64,000 nucleotides of DNA from Paraescarpia echinospica (taxonomy: Eukaryota; Annelida; Polychaeta; Sabellida; Siboglinidae). This document shows, in pieces, positions 18,101 through 45,100 of this stretch. Under the pieces are notes generated by a model. The model saw only the letters and a list, made by a program, of their open reading frames with translations. It was not told where the DNA came from and ran no database searches. The DNA lies in the NCBI GenBank assembly GCA_020002185.1, contig CM034532.1, positions 31,275,649-31,339,648 on the forward strand. The letters run 5' to 3'. A program made the position numbers and the translations under genes. Each line of letters begins with the position of its first letter. Position 1 is the stretch's first letter.

Positions 18101-21100
18101 ATAACATTTTTGTTATATTAAAAACTCCACTTAAATATTTTTGTATCAATAATACTGATTATGCATCTATTAGTGCATGGTAGTGTGCAATTTGTCTACA
18201 TTTTTTATATAAATTAAGCAAGTTGCTTGAACACTTTTACATAGGGAATTAAACAACTGTATAAAAAGGATGCACACGTCCTGTCAAGAATAAAAGTAAG
18301 TTTATTAAGAAAATGATCAAAAATTGTTTGATGAAAATCATAGACATAGTATTTTATGAAGATTGAGTGAACCTGAACATTTGAGGTGGGAACAAGTATA
18401 ATTACTCTATTTAAGTTTGAAATAGTTATTGCTAGAATAATTATTCGATACCTGTTGAACTATGTAGTACTTGCCTACTAGCTATTGGTCGAATCAACGA
18501 GTCTGCACGCAAATCATACAATGACAACAGACCGACTTCCAAGTTCGAACACCGCCCTGTTGGTGCAAACCGTTTCGAAGTCGTCACTCATAGTCGGTAA
18601 TGACACTAAATCTAATGCAGGCATCTGTAAGGTCTGTCATACGGTGCTGTACGGCAGCTATCTCCCTACAGCACAGCAACTCGATGTGCGTCGACATTGG
18701 GACGCAGTGTCCACACAAACACTATGCGACATTATTAAGTCGCGTAACGTCTTCGTCGTCGATAGACCAACTGTCACTGTCCGACTCCCACAACTGAACC
18801 TGACCTTGGGCCGGACATTATCGGACCGTGGATCGCACACTGTCACTGGGTGAAACCCGTATGGCACAGGCCCTTTGTGTGTGTCAACCGTATCAACCGT
18901 AACTTCCGGGTGACAAGTCGAACTAGAGTCTTCATCTGTCGTATCGATTTTCTCCCCAAGTGATACGGAAGTTTTAAAAATCACTTAATAACTCGTCTCT
19001 ACCAAAATCCTTCGACGTATTTGTCAACAACAAAATAAAAATAGTCCCGGTATGCGCGTGCATCTAATATTCTGAACTTTGCTTTGAAAGCCCCGCCCCC
19101 TTCTGGTAGCTAAAATCTTCGTTCGGGAAGTGCGACTTTAACAATGATTTCATTGGTTATAAATCGTTGCCATTTAATTTCACCTTTTTATTTCGAACGC
19201 GTATACAAGTTATTTGTTGACCTATAGAACGCCTATCGTGTATAATAGGGCACCATATCTTTGTTTTCGCACAGAAATGTATACTAATGAAGTAAACCGA
19301 AAAAACCCAAAATTTAACATTGATTAAATAGGAGTGAATCAAACCATTCACTTGGAACAAAGATGGCGATACGCAGTGCTCTATAGCGACGATTTAGGCA
19401 TTTAACAAAATCGTTTTTTTAGTTTGTCTTATAAATGAATACGTTTCTGTTAACATTAATGTATACTTATATAGTATATATTTAAATATGTAGCATGAAA
19501 CAGCTGCATTTCATTTCCCCTTTAACTGGCGAAAATCTACTACCGGTCTGCATGTGGAGTCAGATTTACGAATTAGCAACAAAGGCGATGAGTACGGTGA
19601 ATGAGATGGCTCAATCACGCCCGTTTCTCGCATCTTCTCAACCTCCTGTTTTACCACTCCCAACTTGGCTAATGGAATAGGGTACGGTTTGCATCTCACG
19701 GGACTAGAGGACATTACCTCAATGGAATGGGACAAGAGACTAGTTTGCCCCGGAGTGCTCGAAAAGATGGAAGGAAATTCTTCCATTAGCTGTTTCAAGT
19801 CTCGTGTCTGATCAGGTGATAAACTATCACTCACATGGACGTCCCCAAGGTTTTCCTCTCTCTCAGGAATGGGAAAATCCTCATCAGTCTCACATTCAGG
19901 TTGTTCTTCGACAACAGCAGTTAAACCTAGCATCTCCACATTACCTCTCTCATAGTATTTCTTCATCATGTTGATGTGGAAGAGTTTACGATTATCTCCG
20001 ATCTTTACCCGAAAATCGTTTATCCCCACTCTCTCTATCACCTCATATGGACCCTTCCATTGCATGAGCAACTTGTTTGAATCAGTGGGGAGAAGGATGA
20101 GGGCTTTGTCTCCTACTTCTAGGGTTCTCACCTTGGCCTTTCGATCAAAGTGTTCCTTATACCGGTCTTGAGAATTCTTAAGATTCTCTCTAGCTAGTTC
20201 GTAAGTTGATTCTATCCGATTACGGAGATCCACTATACTGGTACGTTTCTACTAGCTCATCGTCTGGTTTCTCATTCTCCAATAACTCTCTAAGAATCAT
20301 CATAGGCCCCCTGACTGTCCTTCCATAGAGTAACTCAAAAGGGGAAAATTTCATGCTCTCCTGGGGTGCTTCGCGGTATGCAAACATGAGAGGTTCCAGA
20401 TACCGATCCCAGTCTCATGGACGTTCAGAGCACATCCGCCTTAGCATCCGTTTTAAGGTACCGTTCCATTTCTCTACCAATCCATTTGCCATGGGATAGT
20501 AAGGAGAAGAGTGGACTTGTTGGATAGAGAGTAACCTAGCTACCTCGGTCATAGTTTTTGACACGAACTGACTGCCATTATCGCTGAGTACTACTTTAGG
20601 CAGACCCACCCTTGAGAAAATCTTCAGAAGAGCCTCTGTTATCGTTTCTGTGTCGATATTCGACACTGCTACCGCTTCTGGGTATCTAGTAGCGAAATCT
20701 ACCAGGGTAAGATCCACCGATTACCTCTCTCTGTCACTGGGGTTATGGGACCAACCAAATCTATCGCTACCTTTTCAAAGGGCGTGCTTACGATGGGGAT
20801 CATTTGTACAGGAGCCTTAGGGACATTGCCTCAACTAACGGTTCTCTGACAGATGTCACATGACTGGCAGAATCTACGAACATCACCTACTATGCCTGGC
20901 CAGTAGAAGTTAAGGAGGATTCTGTCTATCGACTTCCTAATTCCCTGATGTTCAGATAGGATGGTTTCATGTTCTAACGACATGACTCGATTGCGCAACA
21001 CTCGGGGAACTACTAGTTGTTTCAGTCTCACCCTCTTTCTGAAACAAGCGATAAAGGAGCCCCCTTTTGATCACGAATTGACTTGTTTGTTCTACCTTAG

Positions 21101-24100
21101 GTTTCCCTTTAGTCACTTCAGCCAAATCAAAGCATTTCTTTAAGGTCTCATCCCCTTTTTGCTCTCTCAAGAAATCATCGGCGGATATACTCGCACCAAC
21201 AACTTGAGGCACTATCAAAGGTTTTGTGGGTTTAGAAAGGCAGCTCGCCGTTGAGCACGGGTTTCTACAGCACAACCTGTGACTGGGGTGTCATTCAAAG
21301 GGGTCTCAACAGTAACGGGGACACCATCTGACTTGGTTCCTCGAAAAGGAGAACCTTCACTGTTATCGGAACAGGGCAAATTTAGTTCATCAACGTTGCC
21401 AAAGACTAAGTCATAAACGGGGTTGTTTAGACATAGGGCTTCAATTTCTCCTGTGAAAAAGGGAGTTCTCACATAGCACCGGGCAGTTGGGACTTCAATG
21501 ACGGATCGGTCCATCAGCATAAGGACTTTGGTTTTCCCAGTTAACTGATCTTCCGGAACTAGGCTACGTCGTACAACGACTCCGTTACACCCGCTGTCAC
21601 GTAGTACTTTCACGGGGGATCCCCCCACATACCCCTCTACAACCGGTAAGTTACAACTGTTTTCATGTTGTACACAAGCACTAGCAATTACGGGGATCTT
21701 ACATCCACATTGCAAAGTGACATCAGTCCCACCCACAGGACATTGGTGACTAGGGGAATTCCGATTTAGCACAACTGCACAATTCCCAACCACTGGTTTC
21801 ATCCTTTACGGTGGAGGATTCCTATTCTGCACTCCCACTGTACACTGTCTCGCTATGTGACCTGGCCGATTACAAAGGAAACATGTATGCAGCAGAGGAA
21901 CAGGCTGCGGAAATAGGGTACCTCCCCTCCCCTGATCTACTTTTCGGGACGGGAGTGGGTTGGACTCGGTCTCTACGATTTTTCCGTTTACCGTATGATG
22001 AATGGGCATCTGTAAATGTTCTCACCAACTCTAACAAATTCTCTTTCCCCACCGGTTTGTGTTCTCTCAGAAACACGGACAGTTCCCTAGGGCACATAAA
22101 CAAGAATTGTTCTCTCAGAATGAGTTCCTTAAGGCCCTCGAAAGACTCATTAATGTTTGACAAAGAAATCAAATAATGTTCCATACGAGCAAAATACTGC
22201 GACACTGTTTCGGTGGAATTTAGAGAACAGGTGTAAAACTTCTTACGAAAATCGCCTACAGTCAGTCGGTACCATTCCAGCAATGCTTGCTTTACCTGGT
22301 CATAATCGTTGGCCACGGAGATCGGGGAACGGGAATAAACTTCCAGTGCATGACCAGTTAACAATGCGCTCAGAAATATAGCGTAATTCTCGCGGTCCCA
22401 ACCCTGGTTTTCCGCATATCTTTCAAAGCGCTGGAGATAGGCTTCAATCGAATCTCTGTCTTCTTTAAAACAGGGTAACGGAGGACTACGGACTCCCTTA
22501 GTAATGGTTGAAGCATTACTCACTGAATCTCGGTTCTCTAAGGTAGTGGCCTCGTTGTGGAGCCTGGCCATCTTTTCTTCATGCTCCATTTCACGCGCGC
22601 GTATCTCCATATCGGCTTGCCTTGCCGCCTCCTTTTCTCGGAGCTCGGCCTGGAGTGTCTCCTTCTCTATATCGACCTGGAGCCTCTCTTTCTCCGCCTC
22701 GCGAGCGGCCTGTCATTCATCATCGAACAAATGCCTGAAGTTCGGGACCTGTTAACCCTAACTTCTCGCCTAACTCAATTAATTGAGCAAGATCCATGCT
22801 TGCAAACTAGTGCAACACACGAAACAATCACTAAACGGATATCACGTTTAAGTAATACACAAGGTCAATCACCTGTAAACCACAAAAGTGCTAGCTACGC
22901 TACAACACTCCACACCATCTTCTCATAAGACTGGAATAATGAAATCGCTATACGATTTCAACCACGCCGTGTCAACTGTCAACACACGGAAATTCTGTGA
23001 GACTAATCTGCCCAATGCCAATTCGGCAATTGCAACAAGTAATTCAACTTCCTCGTACAGCTGAAAAATAACAAAGCTCCTACGTACAATAATTATACGA
23101 TTAATTCATGGTCCTTTACTGTTGCAATAAACAAGTCTAATGCCTCAAAACGTGAATGATACACTATAAATATAACGAGAAATATTGGACACAGAATTAT
23201 GTCCGGGCAGAAACGACAAGGGGCATGTGAATTACCCTACACTACAGCTACTGGAATAGATGTAGGTTTCGTCTCTAGCCACGGAACAACACTGACACTC
23301 CACGGAACCAGAGTGCAGCTAAGTTCTCAGGCATGTTCTATGTTGCCATCACGTTTTACCCGCAATTCATAGCGTTGACCGAAGTTGTTATTTTAATTTC
23401 CCCCTTGCCGGAATCCCGCGTACGAGCCCCCAATTGCGTGCTACAACTGTGGCAAGCCCGGCCACATACAGCGCGACTGCCCAGAGTCAAGCAACAAGTA
23501 CTTCAAGTGCGGTGATGCTGGCCAGACAAGGGCGCTAGTGGTGATGACGACGGTCGCAAGTGCTACAACTGTGGTGAGACAGGCCACATCTCGCGCGACT
23601 GCCCCGACGGAGGCAGCAGAGCATGCAGTAGGAGCCTCACGTATATTGTATGCATGTTGTTTGCTGACCAGGTGTGGAGCTCCCGACAACTTTGCTCACG
23701 ACTGCCCCAACAGTAGCAGTCGGCAGAACGTGCGTTGCTACCGCTGCAACAACACCGGTCACATCGCCGTTGACTGCCCCGCTGAAGCCTGAGTACTACC
23801 TCTCAGGTGCCAGCAACACATCGGAGCCGATGCGTGGACGCACACTGAAGCGGTGGCCAGACGCCGCGCTAGGATTGTGCTTACAGCGGTGTCCTCGTTT
23901 GTGTTATGCTGTGGTGGTGGTGCCAGCAGGAGAATTTTTGGCTCTCTTGCAAGTTATCAGTAGGTGATAAGTGGACTAGGTGTTTGAGCGAAATCTTTCT
24001 TAATGTGTTGTTGTGGTGGGTGGTGATTATTATACACGAGCAAAACCTCTGGCATGTTGTCGCAGTCGCAAATCTGGTGCTGTGAATCATTCAAATTATG

Positions 24101-27100
24101 GGCCGCTTTCAATAAACGCTGTCGAAGATAAAATGGGTCGGACCTTTGTTGGTCCAACACTCTGAAAAGCATGCACGTAACGTGGACCGGAAGCTAGGGT
24201 GTTTCGAGATGATCCCAGCTTGTGACTTTGGGATAGGTTGGCAAACCTTGATGTTTTTGGTGTCCCTGTGATAGTTGGCAGTGTTAACAACCTTCAGGGA
24301 GCACTTTGAGAGACGGTTAGTTTGGTGCGTACAATGGTACTGCCATTTTGAAGGTGCAGTTAGGTGGCACTATTCGGATACTGAATACTATCTGCTTTTT
24401 TTAACACACGTAAGAGGTGATTGAAGGGAGGAGAGGAGAAGGATGTATTAGGGAGATGGCAGGACACTACGTTTTATTATGCGGCAAAATTCATGATCAC
24501 ATGTTGTGTTACAGAAATACCTTGGTGCACTTTCACGGCCATATAAATATATAACTCGTACCAGTATATCCAAAGGAAACGCTGGTGTCTAAAAACAGGT
24601 TTGCACCGTTTGTTGCAAGTTGGAAAATGGAAGTGTTATCTTGGGTTTGAATCTGTCGATTTCCTGGGGCACCAAGTAGGTCAAGGAGAAATGAAGACCC
24701 AGGAAGACAAGGTAAACAAGATTAGGAATGCACCCATTCCTACCACGAAGAAACAAGTGAGGTCTTTTCTAGGTTTGGCAGGATTTTACTGGAAGTTTGT
24801 TAATGGGTATTCCAGAATCGCGGCTCCATTGACTGATCTCACAAAGGCAAAACAGCCTAACAAGGTAAGTTGGAATGATGAGGCGGATAAGGCCTTCATT
24901 CAACTGAAGCAGGCCCTGTGTAAGGCGCCTATCCTCAAATTGCCTGACGTCAACAGACCCTTTGTCTTGCGTACAGATGCTTCCGATACCGGACTCGGAG
25001 CAATGTTACTCCAAGAGAGTAACGGAGTTTTATTCCCAGTCGCGTTTGCGAGCAAGAAGCTCAATCCCACGCAAAGGCGATATTCCGTGGTAGAAAGAGA
25101 ATGTCTGGCAATTGTTTGGGGACTCGAGAAATTTCACTTATACCTATATGGGCGAAGTTTCATTGTGCAGTGTGATCAACGATCCCTGAAATTCCTAAAC
25201 ACTGCGAAGTTGACAAACAATCGAGTTATGCGATGGGCTCTTAAAGTCCAACCCTATCATTTCCGGGTAGAGTCAATCCCTGGAACAGATAACATAGGTG
25301 CAGACTACCTAAGCCGAATGGAATAGATGTAGGTTCCATCAAATTAGTTGAGACAATGAAGGGTCATGAATTTTGTGTGTGCAACTAGATAGTTACTAGT
25401 TCGGCGAGTGATCGCCAGGTTATTTATTGTATTAAATGTATTGTATTAAATGTAATGTATTAAATTAGTGTATTAAATGTATTCCTTAATATTGTTGTTC
25501 AGGAAGTAGATTCTTAGCGGGGGTTGGGGGGTAATGTAGCATTTCTGGATGTTTAAATCTACTTTCCTGAGGTTTAATTTTATAAATGAGGAAGGTCAAG
25601 CCAGTAGATAGACATATTGTTAACCAACCACCTTAGTTATGTAATTACAGCAACTCGGTTGCAGATGTGCTCAGTGAAGCGTGGTATTCTGTTGTTAGTG
25701 TTTCTAGGCAAGCAGGTGGTTTCACTGTAATCTTAGAGAGGGTGTTCCACAATGCCTAGTTTGAATTGTATACTACATTAGCCAATATAAATGATGGAAA
25801 CCTGTCATATGATGTGTAATTAGGTCTGCTTATATAAACGTTTGTTGTACGCATTTCACCATCTGGGCGCTGGCGAAGGACTGGGACAGATCCAGGGTTG
25901 AACGAGACAGGTTGCCCTGCTGCCAAGAGAATGGCAAGTCGTAAAGCGTGGTGGGAATCGTTAACGTGGGTTACGTTCCCAAGCTTTTGTGTGTGTAATA
26001 TTCAGTGTCCAGAGTGACTGTTCAATCGAGCTTCAAAGAATCCATGCCGTCACGTCAGCAGTATATTGAGACCACGTTCCGGTCGGCCCCAACGTATTTG
26101 CGTCGATGAGCGATAATCGCGATGCGTTCACCCAGCTCGGGCCATCCTCAAACAGCGGTCTCACAGCGACATCGTCAGAAAGCTTGACCGAATGCGACTC
26201 GCAGCGGCCGGCGGTAAACGTATACTGCCAGAAGTCGTCATTCACGCGAACCCGTTCATCCGACTTCTCGATCGTTTGCGACAGGACAAGACCTCTCGAT
26301 CGAATTCGTAGCGGCCGGCGGTAAGCGTCTACTGCCCGGCTTCGTCTTTCAGTTGAACGTATTCAACTGACTTCGCAATCGTTTGCGATCATTGAACGGA
26401 CGCGACTCGAGAATTCGCGGCATACAACGGCAATCATTAAGTGCTTGGCATCATCACTCGTGTGGCCGAGATACACCGTTCCAATTGTGTTCTGAGCTCG
26501 GCGTGTTGACTTCAACAAACATTCGTATATATTCGAGATGGGACTAGCCCAGTGTAAATGTCTATTTTGTGATTGAACGTATCTATTATTTGCTGTATTA
26601 TGATTAGTAGTTATCTGTGGTTTTGAAGTGAAGTATTATTACCCTTGAAGTATTCACACATATATATGTGTGTTGTAACAGATTACTGTAATGATAGTCC
26701 GCGAGGACTAGCTTATACTGTGTATTTATATTATGGGAGTTATTCTTAGATAACACTTAATCCACCTTAGAAAGGAAGTGGAATTTGATAATCGAAAGAT
26801 TCAGTGTTATTGTTTATTATGTTCTATTAAGATTTGGTTACGGGATTTGTTTATTTTGTTAATCGAGATATTTACCAAAAGGAAGATATCTTGTAATAAA
26901 GTTTATTAAATTTTCCTCGTTCTTTGTTGCTTGTTCACGATAACTGTTCTTTCTCATATGCGTTGACCTTGATATATAAGAACCCTACTAGACTGAACCA
27001 TCTAGTGTACGGAGACCTCGCTAATCCGTGACATAATTTCGAGGCTTACAGTTCCCCAATCAATAACATTGTGGTTCCCCGATTAGTGGCCATCTTGTCT

Positions 27101-30100
27101 CCTGATCAATGGCTTTGTGGTCCCCCAATCAAGGGCCTTGTGAGACACTACATTCACATTATATTGTTTTGTTTTTTTAGTGGGAAAGTTGAATGATGTT
27201 AGACAAGGAATTATCAATATCCAGGGTAAGTTATCTTGTTGATAAAATTTTGTCGAGAATAATGTAATAGTTTTTCTGATTATTTAACCAGAACTAAACT
27301 GCACATCTGCATAAATGAACTGGCATGTTATCGTTGATACTAGATATATATAGTTCTTTGTGAATTGATTCTGAAAAGATATGTACAAAAATTTGAATTT
27401 TAACACCCACTAAATTACATTCCATTGGGGTGGTTCGTAGATTTATATTTTTTCGAAATTCATTCAGGGCAGTGGGTGGGAGGGTGGGAGGATCACATAC
27501 ACAGACTTCTTTTCTCCCAGAGCAACACTATATAGTAAGTAGTTACACTGACTTGATAATTGCATGATGTGAAGTTTAAACATTTAGTGATGGTGACGTG
27601 TGGTTGTAGAAGTGTGTATCGCATGTGGAGAGGGCAGGACAGTGGTGGCACAACACCCACTTTTTGAAGGAGGCCTCTGTCAGTTCTGCAAGGTTCGTAA
27701 GACACATTCGGAATAGCTCTGAATTTTGAATAGATTTCCTTTATGAGGTCATTACTTTAGTGAAATGGTCTCCTGGGAAAATCCATCATTAAACCGAATC
27801 TGTTATTAAATATAAAAAGCTTTTTCAAAAAGCAAACGGCCGCCGCCATATCACAGAGGACACCATTTTTGGACAGTGTCCCGGTGGCGCAACCTGGTGT
27901 TGACCCTTTTCAGTCAAAAGATGACAGTGTTGATGAGTGAAATTGATTTGTGAGCACAATCTGGCTTGTGTGCTGTAGAATGTTATTGAAACGCTCTGCA
28001 GACTTACCAGAATTATATTTGTATTTTCACCTGCCCAACCAATCGTGTTAAAAATGTAGTCGATCCAGGAAGTTCTCGTGATGTGACAAAGAGAACAATT
28101 TATTTACGACCAAAAAACCCAACCTTTGCTGTTCTACTTGATCTCAAGCAATCAAAATACCAAAATGCGTTCTTTCTCAGATTCGTCTGGAATAATTGGG
28201 GGTGACAGCTTTGCCAAAAATAATTACCAAGAAAATAGAATGTCTACCTATCGTAAAATATTTCAAAAATTTTACATATTTGTGTTTTCCTTAAATTTCA
28301 TGCTACAGAAAGTTAGATACATGTAGATATATGTAGATATAAGGCAAATTGACAGTAATATACTCACTGGTTAAACATACAACAAATGTGATTTGTTCTT
28401 TGCAGGAGAGCTTAATGGAGACCATGTTTGTCCTTGGTGATGATGGCACAAATGTAAGTTTATTTACATAAATAAACACCATCAAATGAATTCTCCCACA
28501 CTATGACAGATCATATACTTTTAGAATTGTATAATTTTACATGCAAACAGTGTGTAGAATGCTTTAAAAAAAAAAAAAACGGATAATAGATTTGTTTTGT
28601 TGTATTAAAACAAAATGTAGACACTTATGGCTAATATTACTTATTGCAAACCTTCATGATTTTTGTGTGGTATATTAGTGAAATTTTATTTAGAATCACA
28701 TTTTAATTATTGGTTACTGAAAAACGACATGTTGAGTATTCTGGGAAGGCACTATACCAGGGATCGAATTTGGCCCACGGCACTACGGCACGTGGTGCCC
28801 CGATAAATTTGACTGTATCCATGGCCATAAATAGCTGTGGTTGCCCTCCTTGTAAGCCCTAGTGCCCTTCCCATGCCTGGTACCAACTAAACTGAACTTG
28901 GCAGCATTTGTCACTTGCCGTGTATCCGTCCATAAGAACAGAAATCCAAAGATGAAAGAACTCATTGCCGACTCACATAATTTTAATGAGCGCAACCATA
29001 TTGTATTTGTTTACAAGCTACATATCCGAGAACTAACTGCGCCCAGCACTCTAAGTTGCGACTGAATTGATCGCATATGCGACTGCTTTTTCTGATTGGC
29101 GACTGACACATTATGTACGGCCAACCGCTGGCAACCACACAAATTTATCTAAATTGATTATGTATGGTTGTTACTGTGTTGCAAATATTGCACAAATAAA
29201 TAAAATGAAAACGCATTAGGGAAAACTTGACAAAAAGTGGCCTTGGTGCCCTGCCTTCGAAAGAAAAGTTGGCCTTGGTGCCCTGCCCTCGAAAGAAAAG
29301 TTGGCCTTGGTGCCCTGCCCACTGGCTGTGGTGCCCCCCAAATTTTCCAGATACCAAGGCCAAAATGGCCTTGCCCTGAACAAATTCTACCCCTGTATAC
29401 GTATCAGATTTAACAGTGGAATGTGTTACGATTACACAGCACTGATTTCAGCTGGACTAGTAATGTTCAATAGATATGTCTTGAAGAAGTATTGCAATAT
29501 GAATTGGGGCGTGTACTTGAGGTGTTCTGTGTACGAAGTCGATGTATTGCAATATGAATTGGGGCATGTACTTGAGGTGTTCTGTGTATGAAGTGGGTGT
29601 ATTGGAGTATGAATTGGGCCATGTACTTGAGGTGTTCTGTGTATGAAGTGGGTGTATTGGAGTATGAATTGGGCCATGTACTTGAGGTGTTCTGTGTACG
29701 AAGTCGATGTATTGCAATATGAATTGGGGCATGTACTTGAGGTGTTCTGTGTATGAAGTGGGTGTATTGGAGTATGAATTGGGCCATGTACTTGAGGTGT
29801 TCTGTGTATGAAGTGGGTGTATTGGAGTATGAATTGGGGCATGTACTTGAGGTGTTCTGTGTATGAAGTGGGTGTATTGCAGTATGAATTGGGGCATGTA
29901 CTTGAGGTGTTCTGTGTATGAAGTGGGTGTATTGGAGTATGAATTGGGCCATGTACTTGAGGTGTTCTGTGTATGAAGTGGGTGTATTGGAGTATGAATT
30001 GGGGCATGTACTTGAGGTGTTCTGTGTATGAAGTGGATGTATTGCAGTATGAATTGGGGCCTGTACTTGAGGTGTTCTGTGCATGAAGTGGGTGTATTGC

Positions 30101-33100
30101 AGTATGAATTGGGGCATGTACTTGAGGTGTTCTGTGTATGAAGTGGGTGTATTGCAGTATGAATTGGGCCATGTACTTGAGGTGTTCTGTGTATGAAGTG
30201 GGTGTATTGGAGTATGAATTGGGGCATGTACTTGAGGTGTTCTGTGTATGAAGTGGGTGTATTGCAGTATGAATTGGGGCATGTACTTGAGGTGTTCTGT
30301 GTATGAAGTGGGTGTATTGCAGTATGAATTGGGCCATGTACTTGAGGTGTTCTGTGTATGAATTGGGGCATGTACTTGAGGTGTTCTGTGTATGAAGTGG
30401 GTGTATTGCAGTATGAATTGGGGCATGTACTTGAGGTGTTCTGTGTATGAAGTGGGTGTATTGCAGTATGAATTGGGGCATGTACTTGAGGTGTTCTGTG
30501 TATGAAGTGGGTGTATTGCAGTATGAATTGGGCCATGTACTTGAGGTGTTCTGTGTATGAATTGGGGCATGTACTTGAGGTGTTCTGTGTATGAAGTGGG
30601 TGTATTGCAGTATGAATTGGGCCATGTACTTGAGGTGTTCTGTGTATGAATTGGGGCATGTACTTGAGGTGTTCTGTGTATGAAATGGGTGTATTGCAGT
30701 ATGAATTGGGGCATGTACTTGAGGTGTTCTGTGTATGAAGTGGGTGTATTGCAGTATGAATTGGGGCATGTACTTGAGGTGTTCTGTGTATAAAGTGGGT
30801 GTATTGCTGTATGAATTGGGGCCTGTACTTGAGGTGTTCTGTGTATGAAGTGGGTGCATTGCGGTATGAATTGGGGCATGTACTTGAGGTATTCTTTGTA
30901 CGAAGTGGGTGTATTGCATTATGAATTGGGGCATGTACTTGAGGTGTTCTGTGTGTGAAGTGGGTATATTGCAATACGAATTGGGGCATGTACTTGAGGT
31001 GTTCTGTGCATGTAGTGGGTGCATTGCGATAGAATTGGGGCATGTACACTATACTTCAGCTGTTCTGGGTATGAAATGGATGTTTTGCTGCATGAACATT
31101 GGGGTATGCAGTGTCTGTGTTCTCTGTATGAAATGGGGCATATACTTCAGGTGTTCTGCGTGATCTGCGGAAATGGAGGGGAACTATTTGTGTGTGCAGA
31201 GGCTGCATGCAACAGGTGAGTTACACACCCCACCATATCTCATCGTACCTCCACCAATTAACAGTTGGCAGCATTGAATACATGTTCATCACAGATAATA
31301 TTCCATTGTCATCACACATGTATGCGCACACACACACACACTCACGCACACATATGCACTCACGTACACACGCACACACCATTGTGTACGCAATAACCAC
31401 ATGCATGACGTGAGCTGTAGTTCAGTTATAGGTGGATGTGTCTGATTGTGAAATCATAGCTGCTCTAACTATTTTCTTGTATTTCACTTGCAGATTATAG
31501 TCACACTATACTGTCACTGTGTGATACAGCCAGCCAGGCAATTTATTTTAGTGTAAAATTTAATATTATTTTATGGCATCAGTATAAGTTGGTTTGTTAA
31601 GGTGGCTTCGGTGGCCGAGACATGCTTGTTTTGAATTAATCATTTCTAATAAACGTTTTGAAGATATACTAAAAAAAATTCTCAGACTGCCTAAGATATC
31701 AAGCAATACTCTAGTCCAAAAAGAATTAAGTTTCTAGGTTGCTTAGTGACATTTCCATGCTTTTAAAACATATTAAAAATACATAAACAAAATTACCTCA
31801 AAATGGCATTTTATTTCATTTTGAGAAATACCCTGAAAGAAAAATTTGCATGTTTGTAAGCACAAATATATTTTTGACATTTGTACAGGTTTGTTTTGTG
31901 AACAAATGCATATTAAGCGTGCTACAGCTTCATACAAATGTTACAACAATGTTGAAAGACGACCAAAACTTGAAGTGTATTTTTGGTACAACCCGTCACC
32001 CATTGTAAAACAGTCCAGTGCAATTTGGCACACATGTAAGGCCAGCTTGCATGCCAAGTTATAGCTTTGTAACTATTAGTTTTAAAAATAAATTACATTA
32101 AGTAATGCTTCCTGGTTGTCATTGATAACAGACATGTCACCAGATAGGTGGGTTTTGCATAAAGTGTGACGTTTTTTTAATGGCAAGCAGTTTATTTTTA
32201 ATACAAATTGATGGAGACATCTGCTTTTGAGATATCCCTGTGTTTTCTTGGCAACAAGGCCCTGCAGTCTGTATTTGTAAAGACTAAATGTCGAATGACC
32301 TCATGTTTATGACTGGCCTACAGCCTCACATGCTAGCCTGTGTTTTGGTGGCACCTAATTGGTTAGGGGGTCAACCCGGGTTACTGACAATTGGCGACGT
32401 TGTCGAGCGTCGAACTGTGTTCGGTCGCAAAACAAGAAGACTACTGCCAGCATTGGTTATTTAACATCGCGATGCAATTATGTAATCTTCATAAAACAGG
32501 ATACTGGTATCAGAGTGTCCAGACTATATGACATGCATTCATGGAGAGTGAATTTACACTCATGGAGTGCTGGTGTGAAGCTGATGTCATCGTTTCTACG
32601 GAAACGTTATAGTTTCCAAGAATTTGAAGGGGAATTCCCCGGAGACCACAAAGTAGTAGTTTTTAAAGGATGGACTGGTGACATATGGCATTAATGCCAT
32701 GTTTTCTTTTGTAGTTCAAATGTTCATACAAACACCTACTAATGTTCTGTAAAGAAAAAAGTAAAGAAATCAACTGCCGCTCAAACCTTAATGAAATAGT
32801 ATCTATAATTGTCAATACGTTAGCAATCGTTTAGGACTTAGACTGTAGTGCAGGTATTCATGGATCAATCAACGTTTATTCTCAATTATCATTTATTACA
32901 ACTATTATTATGACAATATTGATCTAAATAAATTCCTCCCTCCCTCTCCTCTCTGTATTGCTAATTGACTAGATTGTTTCTGGGATGACAACTTATCTCA
33001 GTATGTTGAACGCCTTATTCCTACCTCGCCTTTGTGGGGCGTAGTGGTTGAGTGGTTAGAGAGCTGGACTGTCGTTCGGAGGGACTGGAAATTTCATTCA

Positions 33101-36100
33101 CCCTGCATTGCCTGTGTCTTCCAGAAGAGATGCTATAAGATGATGGTCCCTTCTGTTTGGTGTCTATGCCAGGCGAAGTAAAATATCATACACAGGGAAA
33201 TGGAAAAAACCTGTTGTGGACTCACTGAGTGGAGGAATCATCCTCAAAAACTCTATGACAGAATCATCAACAAATGCTGGTGGTCGTACAGTAGAAGAAG
33301 AAGTCCCTCGTGTGTGTTGTAGGGCATACTGCACCGGGTGTATTGCAGAGTTGACGGGAGGGTTAGAGAGCGTGGCGGCCATCAAACACACCAACCCCTG
33401 GGCCTGCTTCATGTGTGATGATGGCACTGACCCGTCCAGTCTACTCGTGAGGAAGGCGGACTGGCAGAGCAACCTGATTGCCTTGTTCCAACCATCTACC
33501 ATCCACCAGGTGCGTCCCTGTTTTGGGCACTGCCAGTCTCCATCCACACACGTGTCACGTCTCAGCAAACCAAACCGTCTCAGTCACACAGGTCATTAAT
33601 ACATTTTGTGATTTTGGCAGACATGCATATCCTATAATATATCTCAGGTTTAAATATTCAGTTTATTTCTCGACAAAGAGTACAAAAGTAATCAAATACA
33701 TTCATTACATTTATGAAGCCATAGATTAAGACACAATAAACAATAGGAGTCAAAATGTTGCTTTTATTGAGTTTGCTTCAATTTTAGTAATAAATAAAAA
33801 ACTACTGAAGATATTTCAACGGCTGATGTATCATTTTAAAGTTCAGGATGTGTGGAATACAAAAAGGTATAAACCACAACTTTGCAACTTAACACCCACT
33901 CTTCTGTTGCAGGTCATGTATATTACCCATGGCAAATCATCCTGTACAATATATTCAATAGAATTCTTAGAATGATTGGCTATAATTCTATAGAATATTT
34001 TAAAAGAAATTGAAGTGACCATAAAAGATTTAGAAACATGAACATCATTTGTGAGCCTCAGTGCCAGAGTATTTTTTATATGTATTCATTGCAAAAATGC
34101 ATTTTCTTTTAAGTCACTTAGATTGCAGTTTCGGTTGTGTTGCAGATTCCACAGGCATCTGACTTTGATGGAAGTCCAATCCGAGTGCTGTCACTGTTTG
34201 ATGGCATCGCTTCAGGTTAGTTAGCCTGCAGATTAGCCATCTGCAGTGCTGTCCTGTCATAGACAGTCATAGCTTGTCAGAGCATTGACCAGGAATATTT
34301 TAAGAATATCTTTTTCAATATTTTGTCTGTTATTAGTCTTTCACTTCCATTGCAGCTTTGTTTACTAGAAGTATCAAATATCATTATAACAACATCCTGC
34401 ATTTGGGTGTGACTGACCTGGTTTCCGTGATCAAAACCACAAGTGGGTCAAAGTACAACTCATTCAACGAACCTGTCTAGATCTAAGAAAAAAAATCAAA
34501 ATAATTCTAACAAGACATTGTGTAGGCACTGTTATTGCATTAGTTTTGGAATTGTAATATATCATATTTGTACAATACGTAACTATATTGGTTGTGGGTG
34601 AACTATATATAAATATTACACTTCTGTTCACACCCTTACCACCAACATTTGATTATTTTATTGTTTACATGTTGAAAATGGTGTATTTTCAAAATAATGG
34701 TATGTATAATTCTTGCTTGTTGTTGGACATAAATTACTTACTATTACTGGGTTAGAGAGTCAATGACAAGCCTCTGTGTTGTAGGTAAAGTAGCACTGGA
34801 TGAGCTTCGCTTTGACATCAGTACTTACTACGCGAGTGAGATCGATGACGACGCCCTGCTAGTGACCAGTGTCCAGCACGGCTCGTCCATCAAGCCACTG
34901 GGAGACATCACGAAGCTGGGAGTGACCGAGGTGGGTTGTCCCTCCCTCGTGCCTCCTGGTCATCTCTAGTTTATTTAATGTGACCTGCGGCACTCCGCGG
35001 GTCCCCAAAACAAATAGAATTTCACTAAGGCAAACAGAATATATTTAGAAGGTTTATTCACAGAGAACAACTGAGAAATAGCGTCTTATGGCAGACTAAC
35101 TAAAATTGATGACTGTTTAACTTGAACCAAAATCGAAACGGCGACTGTTATTCAGAACTCTGATATCTGTCACGGATAAAACACACATTATTATCATGCC
35201 GCAACTAAATACCACGTCCGATTTTCCTAACCAAACAGTAGCCTGTTCTCAGCCAAGGCATAATAAGAACGAACGTTAACATATCAAACGTTGGAGAAAT
35301 AAATATAGAGTCGAAGTAGCCTCATGGCTCACGACATAGAAATACACTGGTTTACTTAGAATATACGCCTCAGCCATCCTGTTGTTGCAACACCGTAGTG
35401 TAATATAACACTGGTCTCTTGATTCACATTTTCTTTATATATTTCTGTAAACCAGCAAATTACTAAAGCCTATGCTTCTAGGGTAATACAGGGTACGTGT
35501 AATACCATTAATCGCCACTATCAATGGTACATATGAGTGTGACTGTACGTACAGTCGTAATCACACACTCATCTTACTATATGACGTTCACTAATAAAGG
35601 TAGGACTTGAAAGTTACTCATTGTAAGACATCCATTACGCAGCACTAACGTTGAATATGGCAACATGAAGAACACTGCCACCAAGTGGCAACAGAGGAAA
35701 TACCAGTCTGCTTCGGGGTACTAATACCCCTCTGTTACTACTACGGTTATGCACGGAAACCTAACACCACAGTGCGATATAATGTCACCGCCGTGCTAGT
35801 TCTACAACGCATTCCACTAATCATTCTTTCTAACACAGTTTACATTCAACAACATATCCGCTAGGACAATATGCTATAAACAAGCGCTAGCTTGCTGTTG
35901 TCGGCGCCTAACTTAACTGTGGCAATCGGAGCATCCTGACACCAAGCCCATGAGTAGTTATAAGTCAATACTGCAATGGTTACGCTATTAATACACACTA
36001 CACATTCGAACGAACGAATACAACGAACGGAGTGACATACCGTCACAATGCTGCGTTACCGAACGTGCATATCTCCCTGGCAATACAAAGCGAGATCGAG

Positions 36101-39100
36101 ACAAAAGAACAAAGGTTTCCCGCCGGAAAGAGAGGCTACGTGGGAAAAGGATGACAACAAAACTTCGTCTGCGCACCCGTACTTGCCCACAGTGACTACC
36201 GCAAAGATAAGGAATTGCCATGGCAGCGCCCTATAGGGCAGTTTATGCGATTCAATAAAAGGGTTACAATTGTTTAACGTATATTCACAGCATACCGTTA
36301 TAATGGGAAATTACTGTAAAAGACTTGGGCTATTGCCAGTCACATATCAGTCACAGGGTCACATATATATATACATAATTACTCAACATATATCTTATAT
36401 ATATACTTAAGGGTCACATTAATAATATAATAATAATTTTATTTATAAAGTACCATATATCTGGAATATAGAAATTCTCCCCACAGGTGAATAAGATATA
36501 ACATTGTTAAAATATACTGTGGATATACAATTTTGCTTGCTTACATGGTAAACATATTACATAAGATATGTAAATTATTAGTCTAAATATTATAGTAAAT
36601 GTTATTTATTAATATATGTCAAATAAAATGTAATACAGGAAAATTAAAAATAAATAGGTACAAGGTTTTTAACCCTAGAAGTTACAACTGAAAATCCTCT
36701 GTAGCATACTGTTCCTATAAAAATCATAACTGCTAATATTTGTCATAAAAATATGAATGAGTTACCATTTTATTGCTAAAGGAATGCTTTATTATAATAA
36801 AATTATAATAACTATACCACATACTAAAATCATGGGGATAGTACTATCAGAACTTCATAAAAAAAACATTTCATCGTGCTCCCAGATGATTACTGAGTGG
36901 CTGTATCCACTGAGACAAATGTAGCCATATATGTTAGCTGCAAAATAACACAAAAACGAAACAAATCCGTTGAGAACTTTTATTTTTATGATTTTTTCCG
37001 ACATAAAAATAGGCCGATTCAAGCAGGCCAATCACTACCACCCTCGTTACCGTTGCAACCCATGCGCTCGCCTGGAGAAACATCACACTGCTAATTTGTA
37101 TAATTTTCACATAAAAGAACACTCCAAAGTCTTTCTAACTATCTGAACTAGTATAATAACCTTATTTATGAAAACTGTCGGGCATTTTGTGAAAATATTG
37201 ACGCAGAAACTTCAGATAATCCGAAGTAAACTTTCGAAGTAGATACATTGCTGAACAACGCTCTGCCATTTTGTTTTCGACTTTCGCTTTGGAGGGCTGA
37301 TGACACTACATTTAAACCATGGTTCTGATTCGCTGAATTGAGTCAGTCCACTGACGTAATTTTTGGCAGATCGGCCAATGACAGAGCTTTCCATCAATAC
37401 CACGTGTGCGGGGGTCTAGACTTTATGAATGGATGTGTAAATTCAGTATGCAGGACATAGTAAAATCACCAAAGACACTCCGAGGGTTAAAAGTTGTAAT
37501 GTGTATTGTGTAAACCATCCATAATAAATTAATACAATAATATAAATTAATAAAAAACTAAGACTAAAAATAAATTCAATATATTGTACGTACTATAGAT
37601 AATCAATTTCCACCCATTCCGCAGTTAATCATCCTTCTGTTTATTTTCCTGGTGAAATTGTTTATTGTGTTGGGAGAATATATTTATCTTCTTTTAATAA
37701 TTACAAAGTTTGCTCTTTTCATTTCAGCTACCAATGGTAACCTTGTTCGGGAACTAAAGGGATTTTCATTTTTCTTCTGCTCGCCAGATAGTGTGGCAAG
37801 CAGGCTATCCCCCATGTAGCTGGGTCCGTTTTCCCATCATCTTTGATTTTATGTTGGTGTTGTTTTCCAACACCAGTAACGAAATCCCACAATTTAATTC
37901 CCGATGAAGTGTACAGTGGTACAAAAGGAAATTGTAGTTATATATTGTTCTATTGCTATGTAACGGTACATGTAGTTTTTTAATGATGATGCTGCTGAAA
38001 GTACTTGTATAAGTACTTGTATAAGAGCTTAATATTATTGATCTTAATGGTATTTTACATGTTTGTATCTTACATGCCACTTACTTTAGTAAACAGAAAC
38101 CATTGGCAATTTAAAAATAAAAATGTTCTTTGTATTTTCCTGTTAGTCGTATTTATTTTATACTTGTTGGCATTTATGATGCTCTCAGATTAGTAATCTA
38201 CACAAGGTTATTTCTGACTTTCTTACGTCATCCACTTAACATGGTGACATGGTGAGTTGTTTCCACAGTTTTCTGTCTGTCATTGTAGCAGCCTAACAAG
38301 TCCCACTGAGGCCGGTGTCCCTCTGAATGGTGTCTCTTTGGGTCATGTTAGGGCGACCTCTTCTCCGAGGGCCCTAAGGTCTCAAAAGGAGAACTCTTGG
38401 CAATTTTATCATGACGCATCACATGCCCTGCAAGATGTAGACATCGTTGCCTCACGATGGTGGACATCTGTGTTAGACTGCCATACAGCTCCTGGTCGGT
38501 GATGTGATCGCACCAGGACACATTGAAGATTTTACATAGAAATCTTGTATGAGCCGTCAACTGTGTGTGTCAGTGTCCACGATTCACAACCTTATATGAT
38601 GATCGGTTCACCGTGCATTATCCAGCGCATGATCTGGTGCCCAAGCCAGGGCTTTTCTACACAGAATGTCATGTGGAGAGTTAATGCAGGAGGTATTTAA
38701 AGTTATTTCTGACCATGTATATTTGTATCTGTACAGATATCTGCCCTGGGACCCATAGACTTGTTGATTGGTGGGTCTCCCTGCAATGACCTGTCTATGG
38801 TGAACCCTACGAGGAAGGGTTTGGATGGTAAGTAACATTATTATCTACCTGTCATTGAGCTAGCATATATATATACATGCAGCACCAAACCAGGTATTAA
38901 GACACATGGGTCTGTTCTGGAAATGAGTGAAGACAGCTGTGTAGGTTATGATCCATACATTTTGTGATGTTGGCAGAAATGCACACCTTGTAATCTCATC
39001 CAATTTATTTTTGTCGACAAACAATCCAAAACTAATAAAATAAATGCGTTTACAAGAATTAAAAACAATAGGCAGTATGAGGCAAAATTACCTCATTTCT

Positions 39101-42100
39101 CAAAATGTTGCTTTTTAAAGGGTGCTTAAAATTTAGCAATAAATATAAAACTGCTGAAGATATTTTAACAAATGAGGCATTATTTTAAAGCGCGTGATCT
39201 GTGGAATCCAAACAGATACAAAACTCAGTATTTTGTGACTTAATAATGACTGCTGTGGCAGGTCATGAGTGGATATGTTAACGTTTTCCTTCTAGATGGT
39301 TTGTATCTCAGAATTTCAGCGAATAATCAACGACCCTCTGGAAGAAGAAGAATGCCTTTATTTTGGTCAAAATCCACCATCTATTAAGCTAGCTGCTCCG
39401 TGTATCGTGTCAGTTGATTTCTTTATTTTTTTCTTCATAGAACATTAGTAGGTGTCAGTATGAACATGTGTACTATTAAAAAACCAAGGCACTATCACCA
39501 TATGTCACCAATCAGTCCTTTAAAAACTAGTATTTTTAGTGTGTATGTGGAAAGTCCCTTTTCTGATTCTTGGAAACTGATGATGTTTCCATAGTGACGA
39601 TCATGTGTGCGTCAGCCCACTTCAAACATAAATTCATTCACTATGAATGCAGGGCATAATAGTCTGGTTATTCTCATGCCACTATGCTGTTGTATTATAA
39701 TTACCTAAATGCATCACGCTGTCAAATCACCAAATACTGGCGGTAGACTCTCCGACCTCAGCTGCCAGTTGCAATGACACGTGACTGACCCCAGCAGGTG
39801 TCAATCAGTCTTGTCTACCACAACAAGTGCAGCACATGGCCCTTCGTAACACATGAGACAACTTGGTGGGAAAACCTTGGGGGGAAATCTCAGTAATAGA
39901 AGTGTCTGTCAAATTGTGTTGAAATAAGCCACATGCCAGTAAAAAAAAGTCACATTTCTAAGCAAAAAAACAAGCATTTGGTGACACCCTTATACTTGTA
40001 ACAACCAGGAAGTATTACTTAATGTAACTTTTTGTAAAAACTATAATACTTACAAAGCCATAATGTGGCATATGAACGGATTTTTGTTGTCTTTCAACAT
40101 TGTAGCAAAATGTTTATAAAGCTATATCAAACTTAATATGCATTTGTTCACCAAAAAACCCGTATGAATGTCAATAACATGTTTGTACTTACAACCATAC
40201 AAATTTTTCTTTTGGGGAGTTTCTCAAAATGAAATAAAATGCCATTTTAAGGTGATTTTTGACATATTTTTTTATTGTCTCTAAACAACATAAAAAATCA
40301 ATTCTTTTTGGTCTAGAGTATTGTTTAGTATCTGAGGCAAACTCTGAGAAAAAATGGCTAGCTTATCTTCAAAACTTATATTAGAAACGATTAATTCTAA
40401 AGAAGCATATAATAGCCGGTGCAGCCACCTTAAGGGTACTTACAAGTTTTATGGCTCGGACCGTACGTTAGACGGACATAATTTGATTGTTAATAACTGT
40501 TACACTTATATTTAGTGTGATTGTTCTGAGCAGCACTATTCAGTTTTGGACATCTCACGTACATGGTAATTAACTTGCATTAATGCAATGCAACTTTCAA
40601 GTTTATGACATTATAAAAACACCTTTTGAATGAAATTCAAACAACACTTATGTGGGTAACAAAACCAATGCTTCTATTCTGGAATATACGGTAAGCTCAA
40701 AAAATTATGAGGCTGAACAGAAACATGAGACTGGCTCTCCAATCCCAGCCTCTCTCGAATTTTCCAGAATTGAAAAGGTATATTCGCTCTCGATTTTTGA
40801 AGTTTGTTTTTCAAAAATACTGCTACGGGGTTTGTGTTGACGCTACATTTTTATTCTGTCTGTTAGACACTGTCGTCGTGATTCCTTTTGACCGGTTGTC
40901 TAATTGCATGAATTCTGTGGGGTGGGGGGAGCCATTCTGAAAATTAGTTATTACAGAATTGGCCTGGTGTGGTTGGTTTCCCCACCTTTGCTGTCAGTTT
41001 TGTGTATTTGTTATGACATGTATAACTAGGTATCGACATTGTATATTATTGTAGTTATGTAATCTAGTTATACATAAAGAGTTGGCTTACTATTAAGCTC
41101 TTATACAAACATACATCTGACTTGTGTTATCAGCAAACAAGCCACGTTTCCGAGTCACGGAGTCACAACTTTATTTGGTAGTGTTGTCCTGCATAAAAAC
41201 ACCTTTTGAATGAAATTCAAATGGCATTTATGTGGGCAACAAAACCAATGCTTCTATTTTGGAATATACGGTAAGCTCAAAAAATTATGAGGCTGACGGA
41301 AACATGAGACTGGCTCTCCAATCCCAGCCTCTCTCTCGAATTTTCCAGAATTGAAAAGGTATATTCGTTCTCGATTTTTGAAGTTTGTTTTCCCACCCTC
41401 CTACCCCGTCTTCACCTGAGTATTTATATGGCTGGTGGTGTTTTTTACTTTGTGTGTTTTTGCATGTAATTTTAAATACACGGTTTCTATTAAGTTACAG
41501 TGTGTGTATAATTGTGTTCTGTGACATCATTGTTTTCTCTGATATCTCTTGCAACTATAGCCATGCATTCTGTAGCATAGTTTGTCTTACAAGATTCTGG
41601 CTAATGATAATAGTACACAGTATATATGATACATCTTCCAAGGGGTTTTAGGGCAGGGACATGTGCACATGTACCTAATGCTTTCCCCTTGTTTTTGAAT
41701 CACAGAATTTCACCTGCGTGTGGTTGGTTCCCCCACCTTTGCTGTCAGTTTTGTGTATTTATTATGACATGTATAACTGGGTATCGACATTGTATATTAT
41801 TGTAGTTATGTAATCTAGTTATACATAAAGAGTTGGCTTACTATTAAGCTCTTATACAAACGTACATCTGACTTGTGTTATTAGCAAACAAGACACGTTT
41901 CCGAGTCACGGAGTCACAACTTTATTTGGTAGTGTTGTCCCGCATAAATGTTGTTTATAAATATTCCTGGAAACCATCTTCTGTGTGTATGTTTTGCTCG
42001 TATCACTAATGTCTGTGTATTGACCGTGTAATGGCTACGTTTAAATGGAATGTTGTGGTTTCATTTCAACAACTGAATGTCATTTGTGTCGTAGGTGGAC

Positions 42101-45100
42101 CAGGATTGCTGTTCGTTGAGGTCTACAACTGAATGTCACTTGTTTTATAGGTGGAACAGCTTTGGTCTTCTTTGAGTTCTACAGCTGAATGTCATTTGTG
42201 CCATAGGTGGAACGGGATTGCTGTTCTTTGAGTTCTACAGGATACTGAATCTACTGCAGAAACTTCACCCAAACTGCCACTTGTTTTGGCTCTTTGAAAA
42301 TGTTGTGTTCATGTCAAGAGAAGACAAAACCACTATATCTAGATTTCTTGAGGTAACTATTTCCTTTTTAATAAATAGTATAACATCTTTGCTTGACAAC
42401 TGCCTTTACTATTTACCTACTTTTTATATTTTGCGTTAATGTTATCATCTTCTGACTTCTATGCAATGCTCCATGTCACCTATGCTTTGCTCTTTTCAAG
42501 TTACCCTCTAAAAGGCAGAAACCATTTTTGCTCAAAATGGATTACCTGTAGCATTTACCTTGTTACAGTTTTGTCATGTTTTCGTTATCAGATCAGACAC
42601 GTTTATTTAGATACTGCTGATGTCTGAATCATCTCTTGTATCAGTGTGAAGAAGCTTTCACAAAAACAATAGTGGTCATGGCTCAGCTAATTTAAAATGC
42701 TGTCTAGAACTGATGCCCTTTGTCTTCAACCTCTTAATATTAAACCAAAGCCGATTATGTTTGTTACCCAATAAGCTCGAAACATTGTTTGCAATTGGAA
42801 CATAAAAATAAATATTGTTTCTTTATTGATGGCACTGCATTTTTTCATAATTTTGTGTAATGTATTATATTTATTTCAGAAGTGGTGTCATTTAAAGCTG
42901 CAGATGTATCGGCTGATGTCCAAGCATTGTGCATAAAAATGTGGGAATGTTGTAACATCTTAAAAGTTTCACATGATAAACAACTACATCGTGCATGATT
43001 TTTAACATTGTAAAGTGATCATTATAATGCTAACGAGACATGAAGATGTTTGTTTGTTAAGACATTATCTTGTGTTGCAGTGTGAGCCAGCAATGTGGAA
43101 TGCTAAGTACTTTTCAGCCCAGAACCGAGCCCGGTATTTCTGGGGCAACATCCCTGGAATGTACTGGTAAGTGACCTCTCATTTAGGTTGTGTATTTTTA
43201 TGTAAAATCAACATTTGGACCCACCAAAACACTAACAGTATTGGTTGAAAGCAAACAGTGTATTGGATAGTGAAATGAAAGCAATAGTTTCATGACATGC
43301 GATGTATAATTACTGCGTTTCCCATATAATATTTAATGACAGTTTGTATTGTGTGATAAACGCCTATATAGATTTTCTTTGATATTGCTATTGTTCACAT
43401 GATGGCAGCACTTCGTACTATGTTCACACACAATGTACCATGTATAATAACATTGTAAGTTATATTTTTAATAGTCTGCCTTCTAAATAAGTAGCATATA
43501 TAAAAGAGGTAACTGTTATGAGACAAGTATTAATACGACTGTTCTAGTCAGGGTCATATTACGATAAACAAATCAACAACTGTACCTTATAAATTAAACA
43601 TGGTACATTTATTTGTTTATTTACCTGTTCGTGTGAAGTGCAGTGGCACAGTGATAGAGCATCGGGATCAATCGAAAGAACCCGGGTTCAAATCCTGTGC
43701 TGCTAAGTCAAACCTTGAGCAAGTTTGTTCACTCTACGTTGCTCCAGTCCACTCGGCTGTATGAATGATTACCTGGCTTTAGACAGTGGTGGATAGTTGT
43801 GTACGAATAGTCTTTGCAAATTAATTACAGTGTGGCTGGATACTTCCCAGAGAAGTCGAGATGGTGTTCGATTGAACAGGTCTGCCAGGGAGTAAAGTGT
43901 AAAGCACTTTGAGCAGTTCTGAGAACTGGATACTGCGTTAAATATAACACCTTACCTTTTTTAATGCACGGGGTCATGGTTACCATACAGGGTGGCACTG
44001 GGGTCTTGCCCTAACTGAGCCCAGACTTAAAGAACAAATGCCATAGGAGTGACATCACCCACACGTAATATTGACTATGCAGTTTATTTGTATGGTTATC
44101 CACGCTAGCCACGTTATATCGCTAAAAAAATGGTAGATCCACCAGTTTTCATGATGTGATAATGATAGGTGAGGTCCTGGTCTGACCTTGACATACATCA
44201 TTTTATGACAACTTAAAATCAGAAAAAAATATACCGGTAAATAACGGTCTGGCAGTAGATTTCTGGACTAAAGCGGTAGACCGTGAGAGAATCCTAAAAA
44301 AAATTAAAAAGCGTGAGTTCTGCTACCAAAGTCATGAACGTGGCACCTCTGGGTCATCTCATGTTTGTTGTGGTCATCTTGTATTCATTGTGGTCATCTA
44401 ATGTTTGTTGTGGTCATCTCGTGTTTGTTGTGGTCATCTAATGTTTGTTGTGGTCATCTAATGTTTGTTGTGGTCATCTAATGTTTGTTGTGGTCATCTC
44501 ATGTTTGTTGTGGTCATCTAATGTTTGTTGTGGTCATCTCATGTTTGCTGTGGTCATCTCATGTTCGTTGTGGTCATCTAATGTTCGTTGTGGTCATCTA
44601 ATGTTCGTTGTGGTCATCTCATGTTTGTTGTTATCATCTCATGTTTGTTGTGGTCATCTAATGTTTGTTGTGGTCATCTCATGTTTGTTGTGGTCATCTC
44701 ATGTTTGTTGTGGTCATCTCATGTTTGTTGTGGTCATCTCATGTTTATTGTGGTCATCTCATGTTTATTGTGGTCATCTCATGTTTGTTGTGGTCATCTA
44801 ATGTTTGTTGTGGTCATCTCATGTTTGTTGTGGTCATCTAAATTTCTTCATCTACATTTGAAATTTGATCCTTTGTACATACTACATATGCATTATTATT
44901 TAACTGGAATTATTGAATTGACATTTTTGTAGCCCTCCAGAATTGAGTCCCTGTCCACTGCCTGAGATTGGACTGGACAGCACCTTGATGGGAGACAGAA
45001 CAGCCGTGGTCAGTCTAGCAGGGCTCAAAGTTATTCTTTAATGGGGCACTGTAGTGTAGTGGTTAGCACACTGCTACCTCTCAAATGAGGGAATATGGTT

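Follow-up and report, generated by a model that had tools for sequence, protein, structure and literature searches.

Why should a minisatellite repeat the splice acceptor of the very exon in front of which it ends, and what becomes of an exon preceded by so many copies of its own start? The question is raised by a 64,000-nucleotide stretch of animal DNA (hereafter the window; contig CM034532.1, positions 31,275,649 to 31,339,648, numbered below from its first base), which carries on its + strand a DNMT3 gene with PWWP at 2282, the ADD domain at 27610-33509 and the methyltransferase domain at 34146-52796. An array of 29 canonical units adjoins the intron-exon boundary of exon 11 of this gene, and the units themselves hold intronic and exonic bases of that boundary. 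Repeats of this anatomy are known from amphioxus, where they are called mirages. We consider it probable that the array is a mirage-type minisatellite that arose by tandem duplication of the exon 11 junction, and we predict that the spliceosome mostly ignores it. The anatomy of the array, its match across the boundary and the real start of the exon, given by protein conservation, are the observed part of this explanation. An original prediction, made from the letters of the window, had named the gene and placed exon 11 in the ADD domain, and profile matches, the Pfam family ADD_DNMT3 and an alignment with DNMT3B agree with it on both points. It had also recognised the array itself, while missing a micro-exon, the gene's second array and the existing name for such repeats.

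The array and the boundary that it copies

Tandem Repeats Finder (TRF) and a direct scan locate the starts of the canonical units, of the CATGTACTTGAG type, at 29510-30987 (Table 1). Twenty-five of these units are 55 bp long, three are 34 bp long and the last has 61 bp, which bears out the expected figure of about 29 units of 55 bp; the sequences quoted in support of that figure are present as well. The consensus of the array is CATGTACTTGAGGTGTTCTGTGTATGAAGTGGGTGTATTGCAGTATGAATTGGGG. Two decayed units, at 31048 and 31105, follow on the 3' side of the canonical ones, and then comes the real junction (31139-31150 in the intron, 31151 in the exon). An AG is present in 29 of 29 canonical units, each time as GAG, whereas the base at -3 is C in the decayed unit at 31048 and at the real junction; the substitution of G for C that had been pointed out earlier is thus found in all canonical units. 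Each unit also offers another AG, and ATTGCAG occurs 12 times. When the canonical units and the unit at 31048 are read as decoy exon starts, the fifth codon is a stop in 26 of the 30, and an in-frame stop is reached before the end of exon 11 in every one of them, so that the use of any decoy would truncate the protein, much as had been proposed. Together the canonical and decayed units (29489-31138) fill 61% of the 2697-bp intron. TRF shows higher-order periods in the array in one assembly, and this suggests turnover of its units. On the reverse strand, open frames of 538, 532 and 483 amino acids run through the array in three frames (29432-31055), because the unit is free of stops when read that way and its length of 55 bp is not divisible by 3.

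The start of exon 11 is set by the protein. Among 108 homologs, those of 120 in which a pattern itself requiring F or Y located the ADD segment, 103 have a spacer of 18 residues between CxxC and [FY]CxxC, and 16 of the 18 are missing from the two exons that flank the array. A scan with a profile built from 17 homologs places them in a 48-nt micro-exon at 28406-28453, with a score of 39.8, the next best being 3.4 in the intron and 15.2 across the whole + strand. Adding it raises the Pfam ADD_DNMT3 score from 34.6 to 48.8 bits, and human DNMT3B then aligns with the model without a gap in the spacer. The exon directly before exon 11 is hence not the one named in the original prediction. The micro-exon has canonical edges and is in phase 0 on both sides, and exon 11 therefore begins at 31151 with GTG; as the micro-exon ends at 28453, the intron is 28454-31150. 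An upstream extension of exon 11 as an open frame was rejected, since the acidic DDG-type stretch is absent from it and the micro-exon accounts for the spacer exactly. That acidic stretch of the ADD domain is encoded by the micro-exon, an exon that gene finders may easily miss.

Aligned without gaps over 36 positions, the consensus and the junction are identical at 32, of which 22 lie among the 25 intronic positions and 10 among the 11 exonic ones; the score is 52. Neither 1000 dinucleotide shuffles nor 1241 other 100-bp tiles of the window scored above 28. Single GAG units agree with the junction at 29 to 32 of the 36 positions; over -10 to +11 the unit at 31048 shares 19 of 21 bases with it, and most GAG units 18. 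The remaining part of the unit aligns to 31105-31150 with a score of 40, which none of 1000 shuffles equalled. The copied exon bases encode Val-Phe-Cys-Val, so that the units repeat both the acceptor context and the codons ascribed to them earlier, and the Cys is a zinc-finger cysteine of the PHD finger.

Could this likeness be due to chance, or to a dispersed repeat family that merely adjoins exon 11? The core of the unit is indeed shared. The 16-mer TTGAGGTGTTCTGTGT occurs 26 times in the DNMT3 array and 62 times in one other locus of the 1.08-Gb assembly (3111 contigs), and its reversed control occurs nowhere. That locus is a 33-bp minisatellite at C3:48255741-48258530. Yet simple arithmetic that ignores composition gives about 0.5 expected sites for a given 16-mer, and a single other locus in the whole assembly is therefore near what chance may yield; the rest of its unit differs. 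A search with the whole array returned the array and that other locus, at 66-72% identity. The original prediction had staked itself on two observations, the 55-bp repeat at many unrelated loci or no excess of identity between array and junction. What we find is a core at one other place and a junction match far above the shuffles, and the idea of chance or of a dispersed family seems to us hardly credible.

Table 1. Features of the DNMT3 gene around its two acceptor arrays (positions in the window; a slash marks an exon edge).
Feature	Position	Strand	Basis
DNMT3 exon, GATA-like finger of ADD domain (…GGLCQFCK), donor AAG/gttcgt	27610..27692	+	
Micro-exon, 48 nt, acceptor tttgcag, donor AAT/gtaagt, 16 missing ADD spacer residues	28406..28453	+	profile scan, gap-free DNMT3B alignment; inferred exon
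Main array, 29 canonical units	29489..31047 (end approximate)	+	TRF and direct scan
Two decayed units; the one at 31048 retains CTTCAG as in the real junction	31048..31138	+	
Junction stretch matching the consensus at 32/36 (25 intronic, 11 exonic positions)	31126..31161	+	
Exon 11, 65 nt, PHD part of ADD domain, acceptor cttCAG, donor CAG/gtgagt	31151..31215	+	
Second acceptor array, two extra copies, decoy exon starts at 42095 and 42151, spacing 56	42059..42206	+	
Methyltransferase exon, source of the second array	42207..42352	+	

Junction or array first

Did the array arise from the junction, or was the junction overtaken by the array? The original prediction left this undecided. On balance, comparison of the sequences makes it likely that the junction preceded the array: the exon bases that recur in the units specify Phe-Cys, at a site conserved in the zinc finger. 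Phe or Tyr is usual before this Cys in the DNMT3 homologs listed (the exceptions are His in Bemisia and Val in Trichinella), and six bases drawn at random would code for Phe/Tyr-Cys with a probability of 0.002. The unit at 31048, with its C at -3 and its slightly closer likeness to the junction, suggests as the likely order that the junction gave rise to early copies with CAG, and these to a GAG founder that spread. Since the other part of the unit aligns with 31105-31150, the first duplication would have taken about the last 44 bases of the intron and the first 11 of the exon.

The reverse order would have an older minisatellite extend up to the exon and replace the old acceptor, which would make the present junction a derivative of the array. 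The resemblance of 22 of the 25 intron bases before exon 11 to the array, and the poor polypyrimidine stretch there, are what one would expect from such a takeover. But the match continues for 11 bases into the Val-Phe-Cys codons, where a chance origin of Phe/Tyr-Cys has the low probability just given, and the same account is untenable for a second array of the gene, at 42207, where the copied part consists of 34 bases of a catalytic-domain exon. We regard a takeover as very improbable. The history may also be mixed, with a junction that came first and an intron end that was later converted by the array.

Boundary arrays at other exons

The second array of DNMT3 precedes the exon at 42207. Each of its two copies comprises the acceptor and the first 34 exon bases, 29 of them identical to the exon, and the intronic parts are identical at 22/25 and 20/25 positions. 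Their acceptors are TAG, with 9/17 and 10/17 pyrimidines against 9/17 at the real site, and in both copies TGA follows in frame right after the copied codons. This array is independent of the one at exon 11 and represents the same kind of event.

A survey by self-comparison of exon edges recovers both arrays. Among 13 DNMT3 exons, a copy was found on the acceptor side of two and on the 3' side of none (these 3' edges include that of the last exon, and PWWPb has only an approximate end). Among 49 myosin-head exons, one had an acceptor-side copy and none a 3'-side copy. The 49 were drawn from 76 myosin matches listed: 29 of 30 cut loci (L017 was too short to be kept) and 20 from among the remaining 46. 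DNMT3 was picked by the finding itself, and 2 in 13 is therefore no rate; 1 in 49 is fairer, although many of the tested myosin exons are paralogs and thus not independent. In addition, a hidden Markov model match may stop short of the exon edge, so that short copies could be missed. The difference between the acceptor side and the 3' side is too small to claim.

The myosin exon (locus L085, C12:15099784-15102993) likely has a third boundary array, predicted from its sequence. About 20 units of 20 bp, of the form TTGTGTTACAG/TACCATGTG, end at the predicted exon start TACCAAGTGTGTGG, at base 1504 of the locus. Thirteen decoys agree with the junction in 19 to 23 of 24 bases, while a control on one strand of the other myosin loci reached 17 at most; eight of the 13 meet a stop and five do not. 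Over bases 829-1513 of the locus, the acceptor copies adjoin a further 46-bp array of 6 units. Two other myosin repeats came up only in a search widened by 60 bases on each side of the coding match, namely a 23-bp repeat at L037 and an intronic 25-bp array at L078 whose end lies 27 bases short of the exon; inspection showed that neither is a boundary copy.

Two further observations concern the DNMT3 gene at large. One of its introns holds 24 copies of a 20-bp array (44352-44839), away from the mapped exon edges. Open frames on both strands at 19511-25326, inside the gene, resemble pieces of a long terminal repeat (LTR)-retrotransposon polyprotein, as judged by eye from the translations.

Splicing below the array and relation to known systems

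How, then, might exon 11 be spliced below its own copies? Splice acceptors seldom have G at -3, and those that do are weak; all 11 acceptors mapped in the gene have C or T there. We propose that a copy in which G had replaced C at -3 became the founder of the 29 units and that it spread through unequal exchange or slippage. The G would hold the decoys weak, such that GAG copies are mostly passed over. Rare use of a decoy would lead into a frame ending in a stop, and leakage could therefore only lower the DNMT3 dose. The same kind of event would have taken place independently at exon 42207 and, likely, at the myosin exon.

Several results weigh against this proposal. The 65-nt exon 11 alone has no significant match to the array (159 of 1000 shuffles do as well), and the exonic match counts because it is continuous and in register with the intronic one. 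Apart from -3, the GAG decoys are no poorer than the real site, with 8/17 pyrimidines at -20 to -4 in the three shown against 7/17. The 12 ATTGCAG copies are unaffected by G at -3, and the 29 G bases stand for one founder change, not for 29 events. Finally, the 13 myosin decoys retain CAG or TAG, and loss of the acceptor is therefore no condition for amplification.

The original prediction took the array for a working ladder of decoys. In such a ladder the copies would compete with the real acceptor, or alter skipping of the next exon as proposed for ABCA7, and their number would tune the amount of full-length DNMT3. The stop reached in all 30 decoy readings would fit such a role, and so would a real acceptor that is jointly the poorest in pyrimidines among the 11 mapped, the ATTGCAG copies, and the TAG decoys retained in the second array; in human ABCA7, moreover, an intronic variable number tandem repeat (VNTR) beside an exon is described as altering splicing with its length (PMC5954066). 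However, the 29 canonical decoys all read GAG in a gene whose mapped acceptors all have C or T at -3, and the amphioxus papers report mirages with intact signals without splicing disturbance (PMC3087553, PMC3902484). We think a working ladder unlikely. On a bolder view, boundary minisatellites would form continually across the genome of this non-chordate animal, starting from acceptors but never from donors; two would lie in DNMT3, where their copy number would set mRNA truncation and so tune DNA methylation. This we find distinctly doubtful.

The proposed mirage has close counterparts. Amphioxus mirages are described as tandem duplications at boundaries, whose units each combine bases of the intron and of the exon, in Adh3 and in the globins BflGb6 and BflGb9 (PMC3087553); a later paper adds PGBD5 and troponin C (PMC3902484). 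In BflGb6 the unit is said to join the 3' end of an intron to the 5' part of exon 2 (PMC3087553), and units may contain splice signals (PMC3087553, PMC3902484). The DNMT3 array shares this anatomy, down to the mixed make-up of its units. It has 29 units where the two BflGb6 haplotypes have 6 and 3, and it departs from the amphioxus mirages in that its founder acceptor has become GAG, that its gene bears a second array, and that its host likely belongs to another animal group, the lophotrochozoans. Among the matches listed (120 of 7967), the DNMT3 protein is closest to those of Lineus, Gigantopelta, Pecten and Tubulanus (49-51%), with 57% identity to Tubulanus over 389 columns. In a tree of 27 DNMT3 rows, without an amphioxus row, it falls outside a group of cnidarian, sea star and vertebrate sequences that has full support, and its place among the protostomes lacks support. 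An HSP70 exon gave no clearer placement: it matched an ENA protein at 99% and many proteins of molluscs, annelids and arthropods at about 90%, with mammals among the top-scoring rows. The assembly yielded no COX1. The DNMT3 array is a new mirage, in an animal whose DNMT3 is closest, among these matches, to nemertean and mollusc proteins. New too are the second mirage of DNMT3, at exon 42207, and the third, predicted, in the myosin gene. A literature search, with subscription journals largely beyond its reach, found no mirage outside amphioxus, and nothing relevant to DNMT3 and minisatellites was among the matches listed.

Two other kinds of repeat invite comparison. In the VNTR of human ABCA7 intron 18 the unit is described as holding a splice donor, and length as affecting splicing (PMC5954066). 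The DNMT3 array is likewise an intronic minisatellite beside an exon. Its unit, however, copies an acceptor together with coding bases. The minisatellite of IFI6 (6-16) is a repeated splice donor too, where the DNMT3 array repeats an acceptor. Introns, for their part, can be gained via tandem duplication of AG/GT segments (PMC4974935, PMC2812944). The DNMT3 arrays would also stem from tandem duplication of an AG/GT stretch, and both junctions read AG/GT. A new intron made by AGGT duplication is not seen here: about 1 kb separates the donor at 28454 from the first array base, near 29489, and the array therefore sits within an intron.

The DNMT3 case raises the question of how the spliceosome picks a single site that lies below 30 copies of itself. 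Should the host be a lophotrochozoan, the process that makes mirages would have a greater age or a wider reach than a single chordate group. It would then also offer a testable natural supply of duplicate acceptors, which have been suggested as raw material for new introns.

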